From Pseudomonadales bacterium (GTDB lineage Bacteria; Pseudomonadota; Gammaproteobacteria; Pseudomonadales; Pseudohongiellaceae), in the NCBI GenBank assembly GCA_023256835.1, contig JALREE010000308.1:1-32672 (forward strand): a stretch of DNA of 32,672 nt, read 5' to 3'. The first letter of the stretch is position 1. Every line of letters starts with the position of its first letter. Below are positions 7,085-25,398 of the stretch, piece after piece. The notes under the pieces were generated by a model. That model was not told the DNA's origin and made no database searches. It was given only the letters and a program-made list of their open reading frames with translations. The position numbers were made by a program, and so were the translations under genes.

Positions 7085-7178
7085 AAAGCGGTGTCGTGCA
7101 GGTTGTGGGCATTCATTGCGCCGATGCAAAGCCTTACCATGCCGGCAATCTGTCCATGTCCGATCATCGGAGGCTTTC

Positions 7179-9167
7179 ATGTCCCTGCCTTGTGTTGTGC
7201 TGCGTCGACTGCGTGTCGCGCTGCTTCTCGCCGTTTCTGCCACTGCGACGCTGCCCGCGGTGGCCGCCGAAGCCCCGGACTTCCTGTTGCTGGACGACCG
7301 CGGTCAGGCCGTGAAACTGCATTACCACCGCGATGCCGATGCGGTGGTCCTGATGAGTCATCGCCGCGACTCCGCTGCCGTGGCGACGGCGGCCGCGCGT
7401 GTGGAACAGGAGATCGCGCGCCATGCGCAGCAGCAGGTCCCCTTCTTCCTGATCAATGCCGAAGCCGGCCTCACGCGCGAGGACGCCGCCGCCGACAGGA
7501 AGACGCATGGCATCACCGCACCGCTGCTGCTGGACGACACCGGCCTTGTCACGACGACCCTCGACCTGCAGCATGCCGGTGAAGTCCTGGTGATCGACCC
7601 GGCGCGCTGGGAGATCGTCTATCAGGGCCCTGCGACCGCACAGGCCGACGGCTCGGGGGATAACTATCTCGCGCAGGCGCTGGAGGCCGCGCTCCAGGGC
7701 AAGTCCCTCGCGCAGGCCCGTCGCACGCCCGCCGCTGATGCCGGCTTCGAGCTCCTGACGCTGGCCTCGGCGGCCAGCGTGCCAGCATATGCCACCGACA
7801 TTGCCCCCTTGCTGGTGGAAAAGTGCGCCAGCTGCCACCGCCCCGGCGGCATCGGACCCTGGGCCATGAACAGTCATCAAATGGTGCAGGGCTTCTCGCC
7901 CATGATCCGCGAAGTGATCCTGACCCGGCGCATGCCGCCCTGGCACGCCGACCCGCAGGTCAATCGGTTCAAGCACGACATGAGCCTGAGCATCGAGCAG
8001 GCACAGACTCTGGTGCGCTGGATCGATGCGGGAGCCCCGCGTGGCGCGGGCGAGGACCCGCTGCTGGCGGTGGTCGAACCGGACAATGCCTGGGAGCTGG
8101 GCGAGCCCGATCTGATCGTCGATCTGCCTTCGTTCTCCGTGCCGGCCACTGGCACGCTGGACTACCAGATCCTGAGCGTCGACAACCCGCTCGATCACGA
8201 TGTCTGGGTGCGTGCCGTGCAGATCGTGCCCAGCGATCGTCAGGTGCTGCATCACGCCATCGCCACCTTCGGCCTGCGCGACGAGCCTATGGACATCGAC
8301 CTGGGCACGCCGATCGGCGACGCCTTGCTGCAGTCCCAGTTGATGACCTTCGTGCCGGGCAACGAGATCTACGAGTATCCCGAGGGCACGGGCATCCTGG
8401 TGCCGGCCGGTGCCACCTTCTTCAGCCAGATGCACTACACCACCTATGGCCGCGAAACCGTGGATCAGACCCGCATCGGGCTGTACTTCGCCGAGGAGCC
8501 GCCGGAGTACACCCTCCAGCACTATGCCATCCTCAATGTCGACATCGAGATCCCGCCGGGCGAGAGTCAGGACGAGGAGCGGGCCTATTACCAGTTCCAG
8601 AAGGACGCGGTGATCTACAGCCTCTTCCCTCATGCGCATTATCGGGGCCGAAGTGCCAGCTTCAGTGTGATCTACCCCGACGGTCGCGAGGAACTGCTGC
8701 TGTCCGTGCCGCACTACGATTTCAACTGGCAGCGTTACTTCCAGCTGGAGGAGCCGCTCCAGGTGCCGGCGGGCACGCGACTGATCCACAGCATGGTGTA
8801 TGACAACTCTGACAACAATCCGAGCAATCCGGACGCGACGGCGCAAGTGAGCTTCGGCGAGCAGACCTGGGAGGAAATGCTCTATGGCGGGGTGTCTTTC
8901 CGCTATGCCAGCAAGGCGGACGACGTGCAGCAGATCAATCGGCAGGAGTATGTGACGAGTCTCAGCATGGGTTTCATGGACACCAACCAGGATGGCAGGA
9001 TCGTGCTGGACGAGATGCCGGAGCGCGCGCGCCAGCGCCTTGCCATGGCCTTCGTCGTGCTCGACAAGGACAAGTCAGGCGGGCTGGAATTCGCCGAGTT
9101 CCATCAGTTGATGACCACCCAGCGACAGGCTCAGGCGCGTTCGGACGGCGCCGCAGTGAACCGATAG
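7179..9167 (+). CDS. Exported multidomain protein: degenerate redoxin, cytochrome c, copper monooxygenase-like, two EF hands
   Basis: 662 residues. The start at 7179 has CGGAGG upstream and a signal peptide follows (~1-30, AVAA). Domain order: redoxin/thioredoxin fold (~33-175) that lacks the catalytic cysteine (SHRRDSAAV where the paralogue at 726-1340 has GSGCPIARLS); a c-type heme site CASCH (216-220) with Met252 in RMPPWH as a possible axial ligand; a copper type II, ascorbate-dependent monooxygenase-like region with metal-ligand candidates His358/359, His419, HAH 485-487 and Met539; and two EF-hand loops, DTNQDGRIVLDE (601-612) and DKDKSGGLEFAE (629-640). Location is periplasmic or extracellular. 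The hydroxylation substrate is unknown. Its 3' end overlaps the convergent gene by 37 bp. Confidence 0.85.
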   Translation: MSLPCVVLRRLRVALLLAVSATATLPAVAAEAPDFLLLDDRGQAVKLHYHRDADAVVLMSHRRDSAAVATAAARVEQEIARHAQQQVPFFLINAEAGLTREDAAADRKTHGITAPLLLDDTGLVTTTLDLQHAGEVLVIDPARWEIVYQGPATAQADGSGDNYLAQALEAALQGKSLAQARRTPAADAGFELLTLASAASVPAYATDIAPLLVEKCASCHRPGGIGPWAMNSHQMVQGFSPMIREVILTRRMPPWHADPQVNRFKHDMSLSIEQAQTLVRWIDAGAPRGAGEDPLLAVVEPDNAWELGEPDLIVDLPSFSVPATGTLDYQILSVDNPLDHDVWVRAVQIVPSDRQVLHHAIATFGLRDEPMDIDLGTPIGDALLQSQLMTFVPGNEIYEYPEGTGILVPAGATFFSQMHYTTYGRETVDQTRIGLYFAEEPPEYTLQHYAILNVDIEIPPGESQDEERAYYQFQKDAVIYSLFPHAHYRGRSASFSVIYPDGREELLLSVPHYDFNWQRYFQLEEPLQVPAGTRLIHSMVYDNSDNNPSNPDATAQVSFGEQTWEEMLYGGVSFRYASKADDVQQINRQEYVTSLSMGFMDTNQDGRIVLDEMPERARQRLAMAFVVLDKDKSGGLEFAEFHQLMTTQRQAQARSDGAAVNR

Positions 9168-12566: not shown

Positions 12567-14186
12567 TCAGAACCGCTCCGCACTCGCGCGTGCCCAGTCC
12601 TCGGCATATTCCTCGGGAATGCTGCCGGTAAGCAATTGCCCGTCCGCCAGTGGCGTGTGGATCTGGTCGAAGTGCTTCAAGTCCTTGCCCACCCGCTGGA
12701 ACAGGTCTGAGGGCCGGATTTGATCCGGATCCTCGTAGCCCAGCACCCCGCACAACTCCAGGAAGGCCTCCACAGTGCCGTGGTGGTAATTCGCCGCCCG
12801 GCGCGACTTGTCCTCGATGTCCACGGCCTTGCCACGCACCGGGTCCTGCGTCGCGATGCCCGTGGGGCACTTGTTGGTGTTGCAGGACTTGGACTGGATG
12901 CAGCCGATGGCGAGCATCATGGAGCGCGCCGCGTTCACAGTGTCGGCACCCACGGCAATCTTGCTCAGCATGTCGAAGCCTGAGGCCGTCTTGCCCGCAC
13001 TGATGATGCGGATGTGCTGACGCAGGCCGGCGCCCCGCAGTACCTGGTCGACGAAGTACGTGGCTTCCAGGCAGGGCATGCCGATGCGATCGGAAAACTC
13101 CACGGGTGCCGCGCCCGTGCCGCCCTCGGCACCGTCCACCGTGATGAAATCGGGCAGGATTCCCGTGGCCAGCATCGCCTTCACGATGCTCATGAACTCG
13201 CTCTTGCGGCCCACGCAGAGCTTGAAGCCAGTGGGTTTGCCGCCGCACAGATCGCGCAGGCGCTGCACGAACTGCAGCAATCCCTGCGGTGAATCGAACT
13301 CCGGATGATTGGCCGGGGAGGCCACCGTCTTGCCCACTTCCACCAGCCGGATTCGGGCGATCTCCTCGGTCACCTTGGCACCGGGCAGCACGCCGCCGTG
13401 CGAAGGCTTGGCGCCCTGCGAGAGCTTGATCTCGATCATCTTCACCACGTCCGGTGTGGCATTGCGCGCAAAGGCCTCGTCATTGAACGAGCCATCCAGA
13501 TTGCGGCAGCCGAAATAGCCGGTGCCTATCTGCCAGATCAGGTCGCCACCATGTTGCAGGTGATAGGCGCTGATGCTGCCCTCGCCCGTGTTGTGCGCGA
13601 AGCCGCCCATGGCGGCCGCCTTGTTGAGCGCGGCAATGGCATTGCCGCTCAGGGCACCGAAGCTCATGCCCGAGATATTGAGCAGGGAGGCGCTGTAGGG
13701 CTTGCGGCACTGCGGTCCGCCAAACATCACGCGGGCCTTGTCCTTCGTCACCACCCGCGCCTGAATGGAGTGGAACACAGTGAGATAGCCTTCGGCCATG
13801 AGGTCCTGCTCGGTGCCGAAGGGCAGCGTGTCATTCAGCCCCTTGGCGCGACGATAGATCAGATCGCGCGCCTCGCGATTGAACGGTGCTTCCTCGAGAT
13901 TGCTCGCGATGAAGTACTGGCGAATCTCCGGACGAATGCTCTCCAGCAGGTAGCGCAGATTGGCGAACACCGGATAGTTGCGGCGCAGATTGCTGTCGCT
14001 GAAATACATGTCGTGCACGCCGATGCCAAAGAACACCAGGGCGCAGACAAAGAAGGTGACCGGGCCCGTGTGCTCGGCCAGAGCAACCGGTGCGAGCGTG
14101 CCGTCGGTCGCTGCCCACACCGTGTAGAAGGCCACGGGAATCCAGAGCAGACTGGTGATCCAGAAGAAGCGAACAGTGGGCGTCAT
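12567..14186 (-). CDS. FMN-binding glutamate synthase-like membrane protein
   Basis: 539 residues. Two N-terminal transmembrane helices (~6-25 and ~41-58) precede a domain like the FMN/Fe-S synthase half of glutamate synthase. Recognisable are NTGEGSIS, the GAKPSHGGVLPG segment that binds substrate and FMN, DGAEGGTGAAP and the cysteine motif CIQSKSCNTNKCPTG of the [3Fe-4S] site. There is no glutaminase domain and no GltD partner, so it is a member of the stand-alone 'FMN-binding glutamate synthase family', whose reaction is mostly uncharacterised. AGGAAG lies before the ATG. The gene follows the DUF481 gene with a 13-bp gap, probably in one operon. Confidence 0.88.
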   Translation of the reverse strand: MTPTVRFFWITSLLWIPVAFYTVWAATDGTLAPVALAEHTGPVTFFVCALVFFGIGVHDMYFSDSNLRRNYPVFANLRYLLESIRPEIRQYFIASNLEEAPFNREARDLIYRRAKGLNDTLPFGTEQDLMAEGYLTVFHSIQARVVTKDKARVMFGGPQCRKPYSASLLNISGMSFGALSGNAIAALNKAAAMGGFAHNTGEGSISAYHLQHGGDLIWQIGTGYFGCRNLDGSFNDEAFARNATPDVVKMIEIKLSQGAKPSHGGVLPGAKVTEEIARIRLVEVGKTVASPANHPEFDSPQGLLQFVQRLRDLCGGKPTGFKLCVGRKSEFMSIVKAMLATGILPDFITVDGAEGGTGAAPVEFSDRIGMPCLEATYFVDQVLRGAGLRQHIRIISAGKTASGFDMLSKIAVGADTVNAARSMMLAIGCIQSKSCNTNKCPTGIATQDPVRGKAVDIEDKSRRAANYHHGTVEAFLELCGVLGYEDPDQIRPSDLFQRVGKDLKHFDQIHTPLADGQLLTGSIPEEYAEDWARASAERF

Positions 14187-15020: not shown

Positions 15021-15497
15021 CTACTGCGGCATGCGTGCCGCGCGAATCTCGATCTCCACCAGCCAGTTCTCGTTCACCAGATCGGCCACCACCACTGTGG
15101 TGCGCACGGGCTTGGTGGGGTTCTCTTCGGTGCCGAAGAACTGCAGATAGCCGTTGTTGATGCCGGCGAAGTCGAACTCGCCGTCCGGTCCGGCCACGCC
15201 GAAGATGCGCACCTGCACGATGTCGGACATCGACCAGCCCTGTTCCTCCAGGGTGGCCTTGAATTTCTCGAAGATGTTGACCGTCTGCTGTTCCATGTTG
15301 CCCCAGCTGCCGTCTTCCGCCGGTGAGGCCCCGGCGCCGCTCAGGTAGAGCGTCTCGGCGCCGGCGGGAATGTAGATGTTGTTGAACAGCACGCGGCTCT
15401 CGCCAGTGCGCACGATCTCCTGGGCACTGGCACTGGCGACGGGCAGCAGGGCAGAAAGGGCAAGGCTCAGGCAGGCAGTCTTGAACAGGGCTTTCAT
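15021..15497 (-). CDS. Exported RidA-family protein, copy 2 (promoter-distal)
   Basis: 158 residues. The start at 15497 follows GAGGAAA and leads into a signal peptide (ASASA-QE cleavage near 25); the listed ORF is 52 residues too long. The Rid/YjgF domain keeps Arg132 in KPVRT, aligned with E. coli RidA Arg105 that binds the substrate carboxylate, and Glu148 in WLVEIEIRA, aligned with Glu120. It should therefore be able to hydrolyse 2-imino acids to keto acids plus ammonium, but outside the cytoplasm, which is unusual for RidA. It is a close tandem duplicate of the next gene, of the same length and without indels. Confidence 0.9.
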   Translation of the reverse strand: MKALFKTACLSLALSALLPVASASAQEIVRTGESRVLFNNIYIPAGAETLYLSGAGASPAEDGSWGNMEQQTVNIFEKFKATLEEQGWSMSDIVQVRIFGVAGPDGEFDFAGINNGYLQFFGTEENPTKPVRTTVVVADLVNENWLVEIEIRAARMPQ

Positions 15498-15624
15498 CGG
15501 GGTTTCCTCGCGAGGTGGTTGGTCGAATTCAGCGCGATTATGGCGCGTGCCAAGGCTGAAATTCCTGCCAACAATCTGCCGGAGAAAAAGGAGGTGGGGA
15601 GCGATGGCCCGGAGCGGGCGAGAA

Positions 15625-15657
15625 ACCGGTGCTGGGGCCTTGGCCCCGACCACCGGT
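15625..15657 (-). terminator. Hairpin between the two ridA copies, possible leaky terminator
   Basis: Inverted repeat ACCGGTG..GGGGCC-TT-GGCCCC..CACCGGT. On the minus strand it is followed by TTTCTC, a short and imperfect T tract. It lies just after the stop of the first ridA copy and could reduce expression of the second or stabilise the upstream mRNA. Confidence 0.5.
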
Positions 15658-15667
15658 GAGGGAGGAA

Positions 15668-16144
15668 TTATTTCGGCATTCTGACAGCGCGGATCTCGAT
15701 CTCGACCAGCCAGCCATCGACCACCAGGTCGGCAATCTCGACGACTGAACGCACGGGCTTCAGCGGGTTCTCCTCGGTGCCGAAGAACTGCTGGTAGCCG
15801 CGGTTGAAGCCGGCGAAGTCGAATTCGCCATCTTCACCAGCCACGCCGAAGACGCGCACCTGGACGATGTCACCCATGGACCAGCCCTTCTCTTCCAGCG
15901 TGGCCTTGAACTTGTTGAAGGTGTCGACCGTCTGCTGCTCCATGTCGCCGTAGCTGCCATCGGGCAGGGGGTCAGCGCCCGCACCGCTGAGGTACAGCGT
16001 CTCGGCGCCCGGCGGAATGTAGATGTTGTTGAAGAAGTTGCGGCCTTCGCCGGTACGGATGATCTCCTGCGCGCTGCTGGTCACCGCGAAGGCGGCGGCG
16101 AACAGGGCTGCGGAAAGGGAAACTGCCTTGGTGAATCGTGTCAT
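15668..16144 (-). CDS. Exported RidA-family protein, copy 1 (promoter-proximal)
   Basis: 158 residues with a good ribosome-binding site (GGAGG, 8 bases from ATG) and a signal peptide (VTSSA-QE cleavage near 25). The Rid domain retains Arg132 (KPVRS) and Glu148 (WLVEIEIRA), the two residues most tied to imine deaminase activity in RidA. Nearly the same sequence is repeated in the following gene. The signal peptide places it in the periplasm, together with the Tat-exported FAD oxidase of this locus, whose expected imine product is the RidA substrate. The diheme cytochrome gene lies immediately upstream on the same strand. Confidence 0.92.
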   Translation of the reverse strand: MTRFTKAVSLSAALFAAAFAVTSSAQEIIRTGEGRNFFNNIYIPPGAETLYLSGAGADPLPDGSYGDMEQQTVDTFNKFKATLEEKGWSMGDIVQVRVFGVAGEDGEFDFAGFNRGYQQFFGTEENPLKPVRSVVEIADLVVDGWLVEIEIRAVRMPK

Positions 16145-16185: not shown

Positions 16186-16815
16186 TCAGCGCCCCAGCGT
16201 ATTGATGTAGCTGACGACATCCACGATGGCCTGGTCATCGGTCAACCCGGACGTCATGGTGCGCATCATCGCGCCGTACTGATCCAGCGGATCAACACCG
16301 CGGTACCCGGCCTTGAAGTTCTTCAGCTGGGTGACGAGGTACCAGTCATTCTGGCCGGCCAGTTGCGGGGCGTTCATGGCCTCGCTGCCTTCGGCATTGG
16401 CACCGTGACAGCTGGCGCAGGCCTGATACAGCTGCTGGCCGCGCTGGACATTGCCGCCGGTGAGGGTCGGGGTTGCCGGCACGTATTCCCAGGTGGCTGC
16501 CCACTCCAGGATGTCTGCGATGTTCTCGTCGGTCAGGATGACCGCCATCGGCTGCATTTCCATGCCGTGATAGTCATCCGGATGCTTGCCACGCCCCCCG
16601 GCGCGGAACAGCTCCAGCTGACGCTTGAGATACCAGGGCTCCATGCCGGCCAGGCGCGGGCCGTTGATGCCCTCGCTGCCCATGCCGTCGGTGCCGTGGC
16701 AGGTGAAACAGAATCGGTGATTGACTGGCTCGTGAGGTTCGGCCGCCCAGCTGCCCGCACTGACGGTGGCCATGGCGATGATGGCAAGCAGAGGGAATAA
16801 AGCTTTGCGTAACAT
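16186..16815 (-). CDS. Diheme cytochrome c (c4-like)
   Basis: 209 residues. The start at 16815 has GGAG upstream and a signal peptide follows (AGSWA-AE cleavage near 25). Two class I cytochrome c domains bear CFTCH (36-40) and CASCH (133-137); methionines after each (85-90; 183-187) can be the sixth heme ligands. The repeated LAGxxxWYLxxQLxxF segment is typical of cytochrome c4 and related periplasmic electron carriers. It lies between the TonB receptor and the ridA genes on the same strand with a 41-bp gap to ridA, suggesting that it takes electrons from an oxidase or dehydrogenase of this locus. That partnership is inferred. Confidence 0.92.
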   Translation of the reverse strand: MLRKALFPLLAIIAMATVSAGSWAAEPHEPVNHRFCFTCHGTDGMGSEGINGPRLAGMEPWYLKRQLELFRAGGRGKHPDDYHGMEMQPMAVILTDENIADILEWAATWEYVPATPTLTGGNVQRGQQLYQACASCHGANAEGSEAMNAPQLAGQNDWYLVTQLKNFKAGYRGVDPLDQYGAMMRTMTSGLTDDQAIVDVVSYINTLGR

Positions 16816-16837
16816 ACGGTTATGTCTCCATTTGAGA

Positions 16838-16869
16838 AAAGGGTGCCACCGCGGTGGCACCCTTTCGAG
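16838..16869 (-). terminator. Strong hairpin between the TonB receptor and cytochrome c genes
   Basis: A near-perfect palindrome, AAAGGGTGCCACC/GGTGGCACCCTTT (13-bp arms), is followed on the minus strand by TTTTCTC. It should end most receptor transcripts and allow limited read-through to the cytochrome and ridA genes. Confidence 0.75.
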
Positions 16870-16901: not shown

Positions 16902-19445
16902 TCAGATGTCCATCTTGAAGCGCGCGTACCAGAAGGCGCCGTTCGGGCTGAACGCACCACCGGTGACGTACCGGTTGCTGGTGGTGGCGTTGAAGTCCAC
17001 AGGACGCACTTTCTCGGGCGCGGTGTTCAGGATGTTGTCGGCGCCGACGATGAACGTGTAACGGTCACGCAGGGTGTAGGCCACTTCACCGCCGTAGATC
17101 ACCTTGTCACCCACCCAGTAGTCGCGCTTCGGGTCGGCATTGGCGGGTACAGAGAAGTACTCGTCGTAGTAGTTGGCCTGCAGCGTGAATCTCCAGTCAC
17201 CCAGAGTGTGATTCGCGCGGAAGTTGCCGCGGTTGGCGGGAATCCCGTCTTCCAGGTCGGCAATGTTGGCGCGGGTCAGCAAGCCAGGAGTCAGCTTGGT
17301 CAGCTCCTGCTTGGTCCAGGCCCAGGAAGCCGCGAACTCGGTGTTGCCCCAGTCCTCGAAATCCATTCCCCACGAACCGACGATCTCCACACCCTCGTTG
17401 GTGGTGGACATGTCGTTGGTGTAGTAGTTGAAGGACACGATGCTGCGGGCGCCGGAGATGCCGGAAGCTTCCAGCTGCTCGGCGATCGCCGGGGTGATGT
17501 CGAAGGTCGCAGAGTTCAGGATGCGGTCATCCAGATCGATGCGGTAGTAGTCGATGGTCAGATCCACACCGGCAAACTCCGTCGCCAGACCGATGCTGTA
17601 GTTGGTGGACTCTTCCGGTGTCAGCTCCTTGCCCCCGAAAAGCTGGGAGATCGGGTTGGTCGGAGGAATCTGGCCCTGAGTCACAGGAATGCTGTCAACC
17701 ACACCGGTGCTGATGTTGGAGATGTTCGCCTGACCCGGAGACGGTGCACGGAAGCCTGTGCTGACCGTCGTGCGGATGTTCGTGGTCTCTGTCAGCGCAT
17801 AACGGGCAGTCAGCTTGCCATTGGTAGTATTGCCGAAGGTGTTGTAGAAGTCTTCGTAACGGATGGCGGCGCCCAGCAGCAGACGTTCAGTCACGTCCAC
17901 TTCCAGGTCAGCGTAGATGCTCCAGTTCTTGCGGTCCCAGGTGCCCTGCTGGTCCGGGCCGAAACCCTGGAAGCCGTCGGAGCCCACGCCTGCGCCCAGG
18001 CTGGAGTATGGTCCGATGCGGTAGGAGTCCTGATCCTGTGAGCTCACCTTGAAGATTTCACGACGCCACTCGACACCGTAGGCGACGTTCAGGGGGGAGT
18101 ACAGACCCACGTCGAAAGGCTTGGACAGGTCGAGGTTGATGTTGTTCTCGATTGTCGTGTAGATACCCGGCTCGAAGCTGGTGGGTGAATCCGGACCCAT
18201 GGACGGGTTGGTGGTGTTCGAGATGATGTAGGTCATCTCGGAGAAACCATTGCCCAGGCTCAGATCGTAGCTGGTGCCGTCATTCAGCTCGCCACGCAGA
18301 CCGGTCACGTTGGACATGTCGGTGTTCTTGCCACCGAAGTCCGGCGTGTAGCCACCGGGGAACCACTCGAGGAACGTGAAGCACTGCGGGTCGGCCAGGC
18401 CGGCATTGCGGGCTGCCACGGAGCTGGTCACTTTGGTGGTCGCATTCAAGCCGCGCGGAATGGTCGGGCAGGTGGTGCCGGTGCCGGGTGTCAGATCGAA
18501 GAATAGCTGGTTTGAACCACGGGTGAACACACCGGAGCGGTTTTCCGGGTTGCGGAAGAAGAAGCCGAGTTCCACTTCCTTCTCACTGTAACCGGAGAAG
18601 GAGTACAGCTCCTGGTCACCGCCCAGATCCAGACCGGCGTTGAGGAACAGGTTGACGATTTCGGTGTCCGGCAGACCTTGATGCTGGGCGTTCACTCGCA
18701 CGGCGTTGTTGCCATTGTTGATCAGCGTCTGCGCGTCGCCGCGCTGGATGCTGCGGTCGCTGCGCTTCTGGTTGGTCATGTCCATGCTGATGTTGGCGAA
18801 GCCGTTCTGGCCCAGGGGCAGACCCAGGTTGGCGGCGACATAGTTCAGCTGGCCGTCGTTGGTCTCGGTCAGAATACCGGTCTTGGTCTCGATGGACAGG
18901 CCTTCGCTGTTTTCCTTCAGCTGGAAGTTGATCACGCCGGCGATCGCATCAGAGCCGTACTGGGCGGCAGCGCCGTCACGCAGCACTTCTACCTGACGCA
19001 GGGCGATCGGCGGAATCTGGGAGACGTCGGGGAAGTGGGTGCCCTGACGACCGAACTGCACCGCAGCGGAACGGTGACGACGCTTGCCGTTCACCAGTAC
19101 GAGCGTGTCATCGGCTGGCAGGCCGCGCAGGGTGGCGGGACGCACCAGTGAGCTGGAGTCGTTGATGTCCTGCACGTCAACGTTGAAGGTCGGTACCAGG
19201 TTGCGCAGCAGATCGTTCATGTCTGCAGTGCCCTGATCCTGGAAGTCGGACGCTGAGAAGACGTCGACGGGGGCAGCGGAGTCCAGCGCCGTACGCGGAG
19301 CGCGACGGGAGCCGATGATTACCACTTCTTCGATTTCTTCAGCCGCCGGCGCCTGAGCCATGGCGACTGGTGCGGTGGCTGCCACGGAGCCCAGCAGGGC
19401 GGCAACAGACGACAGCGTCAGCAGGTTCGATATTTTCATAGTCAT
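16902..19445 (-). CDS. TonB-dependent outer-membrane receptor
   Basis: 847 residues. A signal peptide (AMAQA, ~30) is followed by a TonB-box-like EEVVIIGS, a plug domain (~45-165) with LVNGKRRHR and VEVLRDGAAAQYGSDAIAG, and a large beta barrel ending in FWYARFKMDI with a C-terminal aromatic/hydrophobic strand. The start could also be ATG 19439, which lies at a better distance from AAAGGG. Lengthy acidic and Asn-rich loops are typical of receptors for organic substrates in marine and freshwater Gammaproteobacteria; the substrate is not predictable. It is the first gene downstream of the regulator on the same strand and has its own upstream operator and -10 box. A terminator hairpin follows it. 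Confidence 0.93.
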   Translation of the reverse strand: MTMKISNLLTLSSVAALLGSVAATAPVAMAQAPAAEEIEEVVIIGSRRAPRTALDSAAPVDVFSASDFQDQGTADMNDLLRNLVPTFNVDVQDINDSSSLVRPATLRGLPADDTLVLVNGKRRHRSAAVQFGRQGTHFPDVSQIPPIALRQVEVLRDGAAAQYGSDAIAGVINFQLKENSEGLSIETKTGILTETNDGQLNYVAANLGLPLGQNGFANISMDMTNQKRSDRSIQRGDAQTLINNGNNAVRVNAQHQGLPDTEIVNLFLNAGLDLGGDQELYSFSGYSEKEVELGFFFRNPENRSGVFTRGSNQLFFDLTPGTGTTCPTIPRGLNATTKVTSSVAARNAGLADPQCFTFLEWFPGGYTPDFGGKNTDMSNVTGLRGELNDGTSYDLSLGNGFSEMTYIISNTTNPSMGPDSPTSFEPGIYTTIENNINLDLSKPFDVGLYSPLNVAYGVEWRREIFKVSSQDQDSYRIGPYSSLGAGVGSDGFQGFGPDQQGTWDRKNWSIYADLEVDVTERLLLGAAIRYEDFYNTFGNTTNGKLTARYALTETTNIRTTVSTGFRAPSPGQANISNISTGVVDSIPVTQGQIPPTNPISQLFGGKELTPEESTNYSIGLATEFAGVDLTIDYYRIDLDDRILNSATFDITPAIAEQLEASGISGARSIVSFNYYTNDMSTTNEGVEIVGSWGMDFEDWGNTEFAASWAWTKQELTKLTPGLLTRANIADLEDGIPANRGNFRANHTLGDWRFTLQANYYDEYFSVPANADPKRDYWVGDKVIYGGEVAYTLRDRYTFIVGADNILNTAPEKVRPVDFNATTSNRYVTGGAFSPNGAFWYARFKMDI

Positions 19446-19556: not shown

Positions 19557-19591
19557 GCAAAGTCCTCCTAAAAACCTTCTGAATACCTCCC
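19557..19591 (-). promoter_or_regulatory. Shared operator, copy A (upstream of the TonB receptor)
   Basis: Minus strand reads GGGAGG-16 bp-AGGAGGACTTT with a central TTCAGAA. It matches copy B at 21913-21948 in 29 of 33 positions, in the same orientation relative to the gene it precedes. Two RGGAGG half-sites 22 bp apart lie on one face of the helix, as expected for direct-repeat binding by OmpR/ToxR-type winged-helix proteins. Confidence 0.7.
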
Positions 19592-19683
19592 ATAACTGTT
19601 CGAGGATTGAATTCATTAGGTTTTCGGTCAATTTTCGGGCGCGGTGGTGATGCGAGGGCAGGGCGCGAAGGGCGGCCCGGGGA

Positions 19684-21765
19684 TCAGTCGAGGATGTTCT
19701 GCGCCTGCATGCCGGCAAGCTTGCGGGACTCCAGTTCCGCCCAGTCCTCGTCGCTCCAGAGGTTGTTGCGGGACATGAAGGTGCCTGCTTCGTAGGCTGC
19801 ACGGGCGCGTTCGCTGAGGGCGACGCCGGTCATCGGCTGCATGGCCATGACCCCTTCCATGAGCCGGCGCTGCCAGGAGATGCCGAAATCCAGCTCTTCC
19901 AGGACAGCAAGGTAGCGCGGGTCTTCCAGCACGGCAGAAGGAAAGTACTTCTCGGCGCTGTGGGTGACATTGAAGAGACGACGTTTCTGCAACGGGGGAA
20001 TGTGCCGCCACTGTTCCACGCCGGATTCCACGTCGCCCAGCATGAAACTGAGCGCACCCTTGGTGAAGTTGTGGTCTTCGCCCAGATTCATGATGGCGCG
20101 ATAGGCCTCATTGCCCAGCGCCATCTCGCCGCTGAGAAAGCCGATGACTGCTTCACTGTAGTGCGCCAGCAGGCCGTCCTTGTCGACATCGCGTTGCCGG
20201 TTAAAGAACATCTCGGCCTGTCGGAAGTCTCCCGCCAGCGCCAGATTGGTGGCGACCGTGCCCAGGAAGCCCACGTGATAGGGACGCTCCTGCAGCTGTC
20301 CCTTGGCCGAGAGCAGCATGGCGCGGGGTGCCTGGATATTGCTGCGGTAGCTCCACACTTCATCGGGCGAGATCTCGAACGGGCCCACATCGCTGGCGCG
20401 ATCCAGGAACTGGGAGGCTTCCTCATACATGCGTGCGCCAATGAGGAACAGAGCATAGTGGGCCATGGCATAACCCGGCGGGTTGCCGGACAGGATCTGC
20501 TCGCGCAGCTGCATTTCCTGCTGGATCTGGCTGGTGCCGCTCATGCGCAGCTTCATTTCATTGATGGACTGCAGGGCGGCGCTGTCCGGCGCCAGGCGGG
20601 CCACTTCTCGATGGATGCTGCTGATCAGCTCGGTCAGCTCCGCGATTCGTTCACTGCCGCTGTACACCGCCATGTTGTTGGCGGCCGTGGCAGCCCCCTG
20701 GTAGGCGTTGATGAAGTCCGGGTCGGCCTCCAGGGCAGACAGGTAGTAGTCGATGGCGCGCTGGAAATCGTCCGGGCTGAACTGGTTGTAGTAGAACTCG
20801 GCGCGCAGGAAGCGCTCGTAGGCAATGGCATCGGTGGTGCCCCAGTCCAGCATCTGGCGTCGCTCTTCTTCATCCAGGTGCACGCTCAGGGCGCTGACGA
20901 CATTCGACACGATCTGATCCTGCAGGCCGAACAGATCCTCGATGGGCAGGTCGAACTGCTCGGAGTACTGGTGCACGCCGTCGCTGGCGCGCGTCAACTG
21001 CACCGTCACGCGCATGCGCCCTTCGGCGGTCTGCACGCTGCCGTGCAGGACGTGGTCGGCATTCAGATCACGCCCGCGGTCGACGATGCGCTCCGAGCGG
21101 CGGTTCTCCTCGCTGTCTGCCAGCCCGCGCGCCGGCGAGAGGACCTCCATGTGACTGAGCTTGGACAGCCCGTCCACCAGAGATTCGCGCAGTCCATCGG
21201 TGAGAAACTGATTCTCGGTGTTGAGGCCGCGATTGACGAAGGGCAGCACGGCAAGGCGCACCACTTCGTCCTTGTCGCTGACGACATTGCTGCCCGGCCA
21301 GATCAGCAGGACGGCCGCCAGCGCGGCGGCGCCAAGACCGGCGAGCACCCGGTTGTCCTGCAGCGGGTGCCACGTCGGACTTCGGCTGTCGGCTGTCGGG
21401 TCGGCTGCGGTCTCGGCGACTGTGTCGGCGGAGGATGGCGGTCGCACCACGTCGGCGATCAGGGAATAGCCCCGCTTTGGAATGGTGCGGATGTAGCGCG
21501 GCTGGTGCGCATCGTCGCCCAGGGCGCTGCGCAGCTCGGCAATGGCCTTGTGGACGGCATGGTCAGAAGGAAAGGTGCCCTGCCAGAAGCGCCCCAGCAA
21601 CTCTTCGTGGCTGATGACATCCCCGGGTTGCTGCGCGAGGCAGTCAAGCACGTCCATGCTGCGCGGGGTGACTTTCACCTCGACGTCGCCCTGGGTCAGG
21701 GTGCAGGAGGTCAGCGACACGTCCCAGTCGCCGATCCTGTATTTAGTGATCTTTTCGGATGCCAC
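19684..21765 (-). CDS. ToxR/CadC-type transmembrane transcriptional regulator with large C-terminal sensor region
   Basis: 693 residues from GTG 21765; the listed ORF starts at GTG 21852. The shorter start is preferred because the OmpR-type winged helix begins right after it (KYRIGDWDV) and a promoter appears to overlap 21852. Order: DNA-binding domain (~7-107, HKAIAELRSALGDD recognition region, IRTIPKRGYSL wing), one transmembrane helix (~138-157), then a TolB/FlgO-N-like segment (AVLPFVNRG..ENQFLTDGL) and TPR-like helices in the periplasm. This architecture signals through the membrane without phosphorylation. It lies between two genes that share a 33-bp element and is their likely regulator. 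TTG starts in between are possible. Confidence 0.87.
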   Translation of the reverse strand: MASEKITKYRIGDWDVSLTSCTLTQGDVEVKVTPRSMDVLDCLAQQPGDVISHEELLGRFWQGTFPSDHAVHKAIAELRSALGDDAHQPRYIRTIPKRGYSLIADVVRPPSSADTVAETAADPTADSRSPTWHPLQDNRVLAGLGAAALAAVLLIWPGSNVVSDKDEVVRLAVLPFVNRGLNTENQFLTDGLRESLVDGLSKLSHMEVLSPARGLADSEENRRSERIVDRGRDLNADHVLHGSVQTAEGRMRVTVQLTRASDGVHQYSEQFDLPIEDLFGLQDQIVSNVVSALSVHLDEEERRQMLDWGTTDAIAYERFLRAEFYYNQFSPDDFQRAIDYYLSALEADPDFINAYQGAATAANNMAVYSGSERIAELTELISSIHREVARLAPDSAALQSINEMKLRMSGTSQIQQEMQLREQILSGNPPGYAMAHYALFLIGARMYEEASQFLDRASDVGPFEISPDEVWSYRSNIQAPRAMLLSAKGQLQERPYHVGFLGTVATNLALAGDFRQAEMFFNRQRDVDKDGLLAHYSEAVIGFLSGEMALGNEAYRAIMNLGEDHNFTKGALSFMLGDVESGVEQWRHIPPLQKRRLFNVTHSAEKYFPSAVLEDPRYLAVLEELDFGISWQRRLMEGVMAMQPMTGVALSERARAAYEAGTFMSRNNLWSDEDWAELESRKLAGMQAQNILD

Positions 21766-21832
21766 GGTGGAACCGTATTTGAGTGTGCGACCCGGCAAGG
21801 TGCACTCGTTGTCTGCAGGCTGTGTGCTCCGA

Positions 21833-21861
21833 AGTAGAGCGCAGAAAGCCACCTAGGTCAA
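21833..21861 (-). promoter_or_regulatory. Putative promoter of the ToxR/CadC-type regulator
   Basis: On the minus strand TTGACC (21861-21856) and TCTACT (21838-21833) are spaced by 17 bp. Transcription would start near 21826, downstream of the GTG at 21852, which supports the internal GTG at 21765 as the true start. Confidence 0.45.
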
Positions 21862-21912
21862 GTTGGGTGCACGAGGCCGCGGGCAGCGCAAAGCCACGAA
21901 AACGGGGGATTT

Positions 21913-21948
21913 AGGAGGTTTTCAGAAGCTTTTTGGGAGGACTTTTGC
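21913..21948 (+). promoter_or_regulatory. Shared operator, copy B (upstream of the FAD oxidase)
   Basis: AGGAGG-16 bp-GGGAGGACTTT with a central TTCAGAA, matching copy A in 29 of 33 positions. The second GGAGG lies in the -35 region of the oxidase promoter. Its place between the divergent genes could also let it affect the regulator's own promoter. Confidence 0.7.
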
Positions 21949-21960
21949 CAGCGTGCCCGA

Positions 21961-21966
21961 TTTAAT
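21961..21966 (+). promoter_or_regulatory. -10 box of the FAD oxidase promoter
   Basis: TTTAAT (five of six consensus bases), 20 bp downstream of the last GGAGG of operator copy B and without a good -35. The spacing mirrors copy A and its -10 box. Confidence 0.5.
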
Positions 21967-22078: not shown

Positions 22079-23647
22079 GTGAACAAGCCCGTCAGCCGTC
22101 GAGAATTCCTGAACCTGATCGCCGCCACCGGTGGCACCGCCGCCATCCTCGGCATCACCGGGGCGCTGGGCATGATCCCCGCGAGCGCCACGGCATCGGT
22201 ACCCAATCTGCTGCGCCTGGCCAATCAGAACAAGAAGGTGGTGATCCTGGGCGCCGGCATCTCCGGTCTGACCGTGGCCTACGAACTGGGCAAGGCCGGT
22301 TATGACTGTACAGTGCTGGAGGGCTCCCATCGCCCCGGTGGTCGCATCTTCACCATTCGTGCCGGCACCCTGATCGACGAGATCGGCAATCCCCAGTACT
22401 GCGAATGGGACGATGAACCTCACCTGTTCTTCAATGGCGGTGCGGCTCGCATTCCGAGCACTCACAGCAACACGCTGCACTACTGCAAGGAACTGGGCGT
22501 CAATCTCGAGATGTTCATCAACGAGAACAAGATGGCCTGGATCCAGGACGACAACATCATGGGCGGCAAGCCCATCCGCAATGCGGAATTCACCACCAAT
22601 GTGCGCGGCTTCATGGCGGAGCTGATGTCCAAGGCGATGACCGAGCTGGAGCTGGATCAGCCCTTCAGCGACGAAGAGGCCGGTCAGGTCATGAGCATGA
22701 TCCGAGCCTTCGGCGATCTGGGGCCCGACAACCGCTTCACCGGCAGCAGCCGCGCCGGCTACGCCTCCGGCAACTATGTGACCCACACCGTGCAGAAGGA
22801 CATCATCGACGTGCGCAATCTGCTGCGTGCCAACGCCGCGCGCAACGTGCTCAGCGACAACGAAGGTGAAACCGGCCCGATGCTGATGCAGCCCACGGGC
22901 GGCATGGATCGCATTCCTTACGGCTTCGCCCGTGTGCTGGACGGCAAGATCAAGTACCGCGCCTTCGTGCTGGGCGTGAACCTGACCGACAAGGGCGTTG
23001 CGGTGGAATACCGTCAGGATGGCCAGACGCACGCCATCGAGGCGGATTACTGCTTCAACTGCATCCCCAGCCATTTCATGAGCGGCATCACCAACAACCT
23101 GCCAGCCGATTACCTCCAGGCGCTCAAGTACATCCGTCGCGGCACCGCGTACAAGGGTGCTTTCCAGGCGAAGGAGCGCTTCTGGGAGAAGCAGGGAATC
23201 TACGGTGGCATCAGCTGGACCAACCAGCCCATCCGCCAGATCTGGTATCCGCCGCACGGCATTCACAAGCAGAAGGGCGTTGTTCTGGCCGCCTACGATT
23301 ACGGCAATGGCATGCCCTTCACCCGCATGACCCAGGAGCAGCGCATCGAGGCCATGATCTCCCAGGGCGAGAAAGTGCACGCCGATTACCGTCAACAGGT
23401 CGAGAAGGGCGTCACCATCGCCTGGCACCGCATGAACTACATGCTGGGCTGTTCCGCCCGCTGGAATGTCGAGACTCCGGAAGAGGAGGCGATCTTCGCG
23501 AAGCTGCAGGCTTCGGTTGACGGCCGCTACTGGTGCATCGGGGATCAGGTCAGCAAGCACACCGCCTGGATGGAGAGTGCCATTCAGTCCGCCCATGTGG
23601 CGCTGGCCGATCTGGACGCCCGCGTGCGTGCCAAGGCGAGCGCCTGA
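22079..23647 (+). CDS. Tat-exported FAD-dependent amine / L-amino-acid oxidase family protein
   Basis: 522 residues from GTG 22079, which has AGAGGA 7 bases upstream; the listed ORF begins 72 codons too early. SRREFLNLIAATGG is a Tat signal (Arg7-Arg8), so a folded FAD enzyme is sent to the periplasm. The FAD fold is clear: VVILGAGISGLTVAYEL (dinucleotide-binding), Glu81, RPGGRI, and the C-terminal YWCIGDQVSKHTAWMESAI motif of flavin amine oxidases. Members oxidise amines or L-amino acids to imines, giving peroxide or passing electrons to a carrier. The gamma-glutamyltransferase gene follows after 29 bp. Exported RidA proteins and a cytochrome c in the same locus fit an imine-forming periplasmic enzyme. 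The exact substrate is unknown. Confidence 0.9.
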   Translation: MNKPVSRREFLNLIAATGGTAAILGITGALGMIPASATASVPNLLRLANQNKKVVILGAGISGLTVAYELGKAGYDCTVLEGSHRPGGRIFTIRAGTLIDEIGNPQYCEWDDEPHLFFNGGAARIPSTHSNTLHYCKELGVNLEMFINENKMAWIQDDNIMGGKPIRNAEFTTNVRGFMAELMSKAMTELELDQPFSDEEAGQVMSMIRAFGDLGPDNRFTGSSRAGYASGNYVTHTVQKDIIDVRNLLRANAARNVLSDNEGETGPMLMQPTGGMDRIPYGFARVLDGKIKYRAFVLGVNLTDKGVAVEYRQDGQTHAIEADYCFNCIPSHFMSGITNNLPADYLQALKYIRRGTAYKGAFQAKERFWEKQGIYGGISWTNQPIRQIWYPPHGIHKQKGVVLAAYDYGNGMPFTRMTQEQRIEAMISQGEKVHADYRQQVEKGVTIAWHRMNYMLGCSARWNVETPEEEAIFAKLQASVDGRYWCIGDQVSKHTAWMESAIQSAHVALADLDARVRAKASA

Positions 23648-23676
23648 TCCGGCTGTCACAGCCAGAGGAGAACGCC

Positions 23677-25398
23677 ATGTCATCCCACTCTTTGCTCACT
23701 CTGCGCGGCCGTCGCCCGGTCTTCCGACTGCTGGCGGCATTGCTCCTGGTGGTGCAGTGTGTCACGGGCAGCGCGCTGGCCAACACGGTCACTGGCGCCA
23801 ACGGGGCAGTCAGCTCACGTTCGGCCCTGGCTTCCGAGGTCGGTGTCGAGATCCTGCGTCAGGGCGGCAACGCCATCGATGCAGCGGTCGCGGTCGGGTT
23901 TGCTCTGGCCGTCACCTACCCGTCAGCAGGCAATATCGGGGGCGGTGGTTTCATCGTCATGCGCCTGGCCAACGGCGATGTGCTGACTCAGGATCACCGG
24001 GAAAAGGCGCCGCTGGCAGCCAGCACCGACATGTTCCTGGATGCCAATGGGGACGTGGATCGTGAGATGTCCCTCTTCAGCCTGCAGGCCTCCGGGGTGC
24101 CGGGGTCCGTGGCCGGCATGCTCGATGCGCTGGAGAAGCACGGCACCATGACTCGGGAACAGGTGCTTGCTCCCGCCATCGCGCTGGCGGAGGAAGGTTT
24201 CATCCTCAACGAGGATCTGGCCGGCGACTTCAACGACACCATGCCCTACTTCGAGCGTCACGTCGCCTCCCTGGCCGTGTTCACTCGCGACGGCACGCCC
24301 TACCGCGCCGGCGATCGCTTCGTGCAGCGTGATCTGGCCGAGGCGCTCAAGCGCATCTCTGCGCAAGGGCGTGACGGTTTCTACAAGGGCCCGACAGCCG
24401 ACATGATCGTGGCCGAGATGCAGCGCAACGGCGGCCTGATCAGCCACGAGGACCTGCAGACCTATGACGTGGTCTGGCGCGAGCCGATCCGGGGCGACTA
24501 CCGCGGCTACGAGATCTGGTCCATGCCGCCTCCCTCCTCCGGCGGTGTGGTGCTGATGCAGATACTCAACATGCTGGAGCCCTACGACATTGGCACGCTG
24601 GGCTGGGGCAGCTCGCAGACGGTGCATCTGATGGTGGAAGCATTGCGACGCGCCTATGCCGATCGCGCCGAGCATCTGGGTGATCCGGATTTCTATCCCG
24701 TGCCCATCGACAAGCTGATCAACAAGGACTACGCCGTGGAGCGCTTCGCGGACATGAATCCGGCCGCTGCCAGCGACAGCGAGTCGATCTTCGCCGGCAA
24801 CTGGGTCGGCGAGAGCCAGGACACCACGCATTATTCCGTGGTGGACAGCCAGGGCAATGCGGTGGCCGTGACCACCACGCTCAACGGCAGCTACGGCAAT
24901 CGCATCGTGGTTCCCGGCGCCGGCTTCCTGCTCAACAATGAAATGGACGACTTTTCGGCCAAGCCGGGCAGCCCGAACATGTACGGCCTGCTGGGCGGCG
25001 AAGCCAACAAGATTGAACCGGGCAAGCGCATGCTCAGCTCCATGACGCCCACCATCGTGGTCAAGGACGGTGCCACGGTATTGGTCACCGGTTCGCCCGG
25101 CGGCTCCACCATCATCAACACGGTGCTCCATATTGTCATGAACGTGATCGATCATGGCATGGGCGTGGAAGAGGCTGTCGCCAGCCCGCGCTTCTATCAC
25201 CAGTGGAAGCCGGATCAGATTCGTTTCGAGCGCGACTCCATCAGTGCGGAGACCCGCGCCACCCTCGAAGCGATGGGGCATCGCGGATTCCAGGAGGCGG
25301 GCTTCGCCTTCGGTGACGCCAACTCCATCGTCATTCGCGAAGGCGTGATCGAAGCCACATCGGACCCCCGCAGTGTTGGCGGCGCAGCCGCCTGGTAG
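23677..25398 (+). CDS. ggt: Gamma-glutamyltransferase
   Basis: 573 residues. The start at 23677 has GAGGAG 6 bases upstream; a signal peptide follows (hydrophobic ~17-30, SALA near 35). The proenzyme cleaves itself before Thr383 in DTTHYSVVD, equivalent to E. coli Thr391, to give large and small subunits. Other family signatures are GGNAIDAAVA, GNIGGGGF, the substrate loop MPPPSSGG and GSPGGSTIINTVL. In the periplasm it would hydrolyse or transfer gamma-glutamyl groups from glutathione, gamma-glutamyl amino acids or amines. Coupled in an operon to the FAD oxidase, it could release the amino compound that the oxidase attacks, which is an inference from gene order. Confidence 0.95.
   Translation: MSSHSLLTLRGRRPVFRLLAALLLVVQCVTGSALANTVTGANGAVSSRSALASEVGVEILRQGGNAIDAAVAVGFALAVTYPSAGNIGGGGFIVMRLANGDVLTQDHREKAPLAASTDMFLDANGDVDREMSLFSLQASGVPGSVAGMLDALEKHGTMTREQVLAPAIALAEEGFILNEDLAGDFNDTMPYFERHVASLAVFTRDGTPYRAGDRFVQRDLAEALKRISAQGRDGFYKGPTADMIVAEMQRNGGLISHEDLQTYDVVWREPIRGDYRGYEIWSMPPPSSGGVVLMQILNMLEPYDIGTLGWGSSQTVHLMVEALRRAYADRAEHLGDPDFYPVPIDKLINKDYAVERFADMNPAAASDSESIFAGNWVGESQDTTHYSVVDSQGNAVAVTTTLNGSYGNRIVVPGAGFLLNNEMDDFSAKPGSPNMYGLLGGEANKIEPGKRMLSSMTPTIVVKDGATVLVTGSPGGSTIINTVLHIVMNVIDHGMGVEEAVASPRFYHQWKPDQIRFERDSISAETRATLEAMGHRGFQEAGFAFGDANSIVIREGVIEATSDPRSVGGAAAW

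Follow-up and report, generated by a model that had tools for sequence, protein, structure and literature searches.

To our knowledge, few regulators of the ToxR/CadC type have a defined operator, and those that do are known chiefly from pathogens. The use of direct repeats by ToxR-like regulators is itself established, one example being ToxR, whose tox-box reads TNAAA-N5-TNAAA (PMC8517210), and another being the ToxR-like regulator VtrA (PMC5693285). Head-to-tail repeats are also found in the Pho box of PhoB, which consists of two 11-bp direct repeats (PMC3978041). As to the metabolic genes of interest here, genes for an L-amino acid oxidase, a cytochrome c and a RidA protein occur together in the lao-cccA-ridA cluster of Gluconacetobacter diazotrophicus, whose regulation was left open (PMC5053998), and work on NicA2-type amine oxidoreductases has pointed to a Tat signal combined with an operonic cytochrome c as a predictor of a cytochrome-c-using dehydrogenase (PMC12224317).

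The locus described here is part of a 32,672-nucleotide stretch of DNA (the window; contig JALREE010000308.1) from a member of the Pseudohongiellaceae, in which a gene for a ToxR/CadC-like membrane regulator (19684-21765, minus strand; recognized by profile, structure and model matches) is located between two copies of a 33-bp element. The protein consists of a winged helix (residues ~8-105), a transmembrane helix (~137-156) and a TolB-like and TPR C-terminal part. Its N-terminus matches the OmpR-type winged helix (PF00486, 9.6e-17), its closest relative by sequence among solved structures is CadC (5ju7, 6.7e-16), and in a fold search its winged helix matches both the ToxR-DNA complexes and CadC (5ju7, 3ly7). 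A single hydrophobic stretch is present near residue 140, at the same position as in the homologues, and the AlphaFold model (mean pLDDT 77, 13 sequences) places the membrane helix at about 136-155. The same model suggests a partial resemblance of the C-terminal part to the CadC periplasmic domain and to TolB and TPR folds, with a topology that is itself predicted. With the PF00486 match, the CadC/ToxR fold and the one membrane helix, the protein is indeed the ToxR/CadC-type membrane regulator that the original prediction had placed between the elements. As it scores 115.9 bits against the NCBIfam CadC equivalog, far under the cut-off of 400, it is to be considered ToxR/CadC-like, and not CadC. 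It shares with E. coli CadC the winged helix, the single membrane helix and, by prediction, the periplasmic region, but it possesses a larger TolB/TPR-like C-terminal part, and no lysine decarboxylase locus is involved. The likeness to ToxR and VtrA lies in a winged-helix regulator that is bound to the membrane and lacks a receiver domain (no Pfam match to such a domain was found in the protein) and in direct repeats in the promoter, while the operator predicted here is G-rich, is composed of three 11-bp repeats and is local to the locus of the regulator, and its predicted targets are uptake and amino-acid oxidation, as opposed to virulence or porin genes.

Putative operator 1 (GGGAGGTATTCAGAAGGTTTTTAGGAGGACTTT) is located at 19591-19559 on the minus strand, 5' of a TonB receptor gene, and putative operator 2 (AGGAGGTTTTCAGAAGCTTTTTGGGAGGACTTT) at 21913-21945 on the plus strand, 5' of a flavoenzyme gene, both more than 110 bp upstream of the respective start codon and also upstream of the -10. 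Coordinates, orientation and -10 boxes are all found in the sequence as originally predicted, and a recount upholds the identity of 29/33 between the two copies, with 4 differing positions. The elements had been described as two half-sites 22 bp apart, and an RGGAGG pair is in fact present, but these turn out to be the first and the third of three tandem, head-to-tail 11-bp direct repeats approximating AGGAGGTNTTY. The repeats read, in order, (G/A)GGAGGT(A/T)TTC, AGAAG(G/C)TTTTT and (A/G)GGAGGACTTT, and they occupy 19591-19581, 19580-19570 and 19569-19559 (minus strand) in one copy, and 21913-21923, 21924-21934 and 21935-21945 (plus strand) in the other. Between-repeat matches amount to 22/33 and 21/33, values reached by 1 and 2 of 100,000 shuffles, respectively. 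Across 15 sites spread over lineages, the lags of 11 and 22 give 0.55 and 0.58, versus 0.13-0.41 elsewhere, and the 11-bp periodicity reaches z = 14.2, in a set that was selected by a matrix constructed from this element and in which near relatives are not independent. The pattern RGGAGG-N16-RGGAGG occurs twice in the window versus 0.00 expected (100 dinucleotide shuffles), no match to the element arises in shuffled window sequences, and, with a matrix derived from the sites, the two window sites score approximately 51, compared to a background maximum of 12.7 over 963,376 positions. Allowing up to 3 mismatches to the joint pattern, no match beyond these two was found in the assembly of the window's genome, which is ~77% complete.

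The position of the elements relative to the predicted promoters is as regular as their internal structure. In 55 of 58 aligned sites, the distance from the element to an ATAAT-like box is 15-16 bp, which places the third repeat over the -35 position; one site (L097) has no clear -10 at the usual distance. In the window, the predicted -10-like boxes are GATAAT (19541-19536, minus strand), 17 bp past operator 1, and TTTAAT (21961-21966, plus strand), 15 bp past operator 2. The hexamers at the -35 position, AGGACT and GGACTT, are poor -35 boxes, so both promoters look activator-dependent. In class II activation, as carried out by PhoB, repeats one helical turn apart substitute for the -35. Two traits of such PhoB-type promoters are present here, namely direct repeats in tandem, spaced by one helical turn, and a site over a poor -35 at a fixed distance to a predicted -10, and an element over the -35 ahead of a fixed -10 fits activation, as far as can be judged from the sequence. 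The head-to-tail 11-bp repeats are shared with the Pho box, which differs in having two repeats instead of three, of an unrelated sequence, and in serving a response regulator instead of a membrane one-component regulator.

The genes downstream of the elements form two units. The left unit, all on the minus strand, starts with the TonB-dependent receptor (16902-19445), followed by a diheme cytochrome c with a signal peptide and two CxxCH motifs (16186-16860), a RidA-family protein with an apparent signal peptide (15668-16144) and a second RidA-family protein (15021-15653), which probably starts at an internal ATG that precedes a signal peptide. The two RidA genes (15021-16144) are a tandem pair, both with apparent Sec signal peptides, which suggests a periplasmic RidA that would act alongside the flavoenzyme. 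The latter (22079-23647, plus strand) carries at its N-terminus a Tat motif, SRREFLNL (read by eye from the sequence, in MNKPVSRREFLNLIAATGG). What had been termed an FAD oxidase is a flavoenzyme, more exactly one of the L-amino-acid-oxidase family, closest to the bacterial L-amino acid oxidase 2jae (8.7e-77), and it is more likely a putative cytochrome-c-linked dehydrogenase than an oxidase. The cytochrome c gene, part of the receptor unit in the window, directly follows the oxidase gene in the paralogue loci. The combination of a Tat flavoenzyme with a cytochrome c gene in one locus resembles the NicA2 type (PMC12224317), while the enzyme here is closest to 2jae, is known from sequence, and has its cytochrome gene in the sister unit. 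Compared to the lao-cccA-ridA cluster, for which neither a TonB receptor nor a regulator is described, the genes here are arranged in two units with a shared predicted operator. Adjoining one unit each are a glutamate-synthase-domain protein (12567-14186, minus strand) and a gamma-glutamyltranspeptidase (23533-25398, plus strand), which may have a part in the same amino-acid metabolism. Elsewhere in the window, an open reading frame (7116-9167, plus strand) matches AhpC/TSA-like, copper type II monooxygenase C-terminal and EF-hand domains.

We now have multiple genomes in which the element can be followed, and the motif search in relatives, which had been proposed as a check, finds it 5' of both receptor and oxidase genes in two genera. 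In the genus of the window, exactly two copies per genome are present in 14/14 genomes, both adjoining the orthologue of the same regulator (69-100% identical), with 0 matches in a reversed-pattern control. In a second genus, which includes Pseudohongiella, 8 genomes have one pattern match each, and a matrix scan adds a second, more divergent copy 5' of the oxidase gene, seen also in members of this group missed by the pattern; Pseudohongiella relatives with regulators at 50-55% identity retain both copies. In each of four sets (two genera, both genes), the element has a mean information content of 1.73-1.86 bits per column versus about 0.5-1.3 in the flanks, the higher flank values falling at the -10, and thus the loss of the element amid conserved flanks, named originally as a refuting outcome, is not what is seen. 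Most of the genomes compared were assembled from metagenomes, and some labels are doubtful: CAMCRC010000005.1, titled Klebsiella pneumoniae, and CALQJO020000022.1, titled Rhodoferax sp., look mislabeled, as they cluster with the genus of the window and with Pseudohongiella. In one genome (G008:C85:121190-123263) the regulator gene is in two overlapping frames, possibly due to a frameshift or an assembly error, and both operators are still there. Halieaceae keep the RGGAGG boxes, at a spacing other than 3 x 11. In the receptor-regulator gap of Haliea and Parahaliea, GGGAGG and RGGAGG boxes are found 10 bp apart, with a GGGAGGACTTT box ~32 bp farther along.

The element is also strictly linked to the regulator. 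In the 97 genomes searched, matches were found only beside this regulator, while 12 genomes of the same family (G017, G019, G024, G028, G030, G033, G038, G045, G048, G051, G054, and G057), with oxidases 57-64% identical, have no close regulator homologue (45% identity or better; G019 has a 41% relative) and no match to the element. In L108 and L109, where the receptor heads a single operon, the search located one box, 5' of the receptor gene. A paralogous regulator (~46% identical) encoded in the window's own genome adjoins a second oxidase and does so without this element.

Very probably, then, the two elements are activator operators of the CadC-like regulator encoded between them, co-controlling both units. 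We infer that each element would offer the regulator three 11-bp sites that run head to tail along one face of the helix and would be filled cooperatively in response to a periplasmic signal. With the third site at the -35 position, 15-17 bp from the -10, the bound regulator would replace the weak -35 and contact RNA polymerase in the class II (PhoB-type) manner. The two units, one with the receptor, cytochrome c and exported RidA, the other with the Tat-exported L-amino-acid oxidoreductase, would be switched on together, resulting in the joint import of an amino-acid-like substrate and its oxidation in the periplasm. The different box spacing in Halieaceae and the additional class B element opposite a convergent gene count against this reading, as do the L097 site and the way in which the periodicity sites were picked.

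The main rival to activation is repression of both promoters by the same regulator, which would cover the -35 until freed by an inducer. A third repeat over the -35 position would block polymerase just as well, and ToxR is reported also to repress ompT (PMC6733452), but ToxR/CadC-like proteins are mostly activators and -35 hexamers this poor point to promoters in need of one, and we consider repression unlikely. It is less probable still that the elements serve some other, perhaps global, regulator and neighbor this gene by chance. The tie between site and protein is, admittedly, predicted from sequence and linkage; against chance adjacency speak the matches confined, over 97 genomes, to the vicinity of this regulator, the lack of the element at oxidase loci devoid of a close regulator homologue, and the separate arrays owned by paralogous regulators. 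A global regulator as such was rejected, no further copies being found in the searched genomes at 3 mismatches.

The AGGAGG motifs might alternatively be RNA sites in the leader, for ribosome binding, of the CsrA type or riboswitch-like. AGGAGG does resemble a Shine-Dalgarno sequence, and CsrA binds GGA motifs. However, the distance of over 110 bp to either start codon, the location upstream of the -10 and an 11-bp phase that suits DNA make such a role very improbable. Shine-Dalgarno, CsrA and riboswitch-like elements were rejected on the place upstream of the -10 and on an Rfam search of the element that returned no family at cut-off. Least credible of all, to the point of being negligible, is that two near-identical copies so near each other represent a recent duplication or the ends of a mobile element, as both positions are maintained over two genera, a conservation that refutes a recent origin, and as, in the Pseudohongiella group, the second copy has kept its repeat pattern while its sequence diverged. 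DNA of a mobile or recently duplicated kind was rejected on the unrelated flanks, the flanks of the two copies having no similarity.

Paralogous regulators have divergent arrays of their own. One example is the class A paralogues (L061-L068), whose 11-bp arrays end in GAAGGAA(A/T)TT, contain up to 5 repeats (z = 8.3) and are followed, 16 bp on, by an AATACT/AATAAT-like box (AACACT in two). Another example is the class B paralogues, with GGAG-type arrays near TonB receptors and without a clear -10. A loose pattern search of the 14 genomes of the genus recovered all 28 known sites, along with four further sites with 1-2 mismatches, all beside class B regulators. The remaining three hits, at the limit of 3 mismatches, carry no weight, since the reversed pattern gives ~3 matches per genome at this limit. 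In three class B loci (L071:8137, L069:9212, L070:8303), an element of 11-bp repeats is found downstream of the regulator; in L069 and L071 it has no sense gene, because it faces a convergent TonB receptor gene. When regulators are grouped by box type and genus, each group forms one clade, a consistency check and not an independent test. The recognition helices are almost equal (SDHAVHKAIAELRSAL versus SDHAIHKAIAELRAAM), and the loop after the helix varies. We tentatively propose, at somewhat less than even confidence, that tandem 11-bp arrays of the GGAG type, placed by the regulator's own gene, are used throughout a whole family of CadC-like regulators whose sensors are TolB/TPR-like, and that same-cell duplicates have drifted to different operators (AGGAGGTNTTC versus GGAAGAAGATT); with operators diverged and recognition helices nearly constant, specificity would then reside in the post-helix loop or the wing.

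No description of the operator was found in the open-access literature on CadC-type direct repeats, on Pseudohongiella regulators, or on regulators of TonB receptors with L-amino acid oxidases, in agreement with the original view of it as unreported. While ToxR-like regulators on direct repeats have precedents, the present case stands out by the uncommon clarity of its footprint, by its triple, G-rich site and by paralogue operators that form a natural divergence series. Overall, in these environmental Gammaproteobacteria the sequence allows the prediction of a regulator, of the precise 33 bp on which it would act and of a regulon made of two units that fit together in function. The paralogue series would constitute a natural test of how such regulators shift their DNA specificity, could help to find what the receptor takes up, and, if the family-wide use of these arrays is true, would represent a natural series of one-component circuits in the membrane, insulated from one another and serving amino-acid scavenging.
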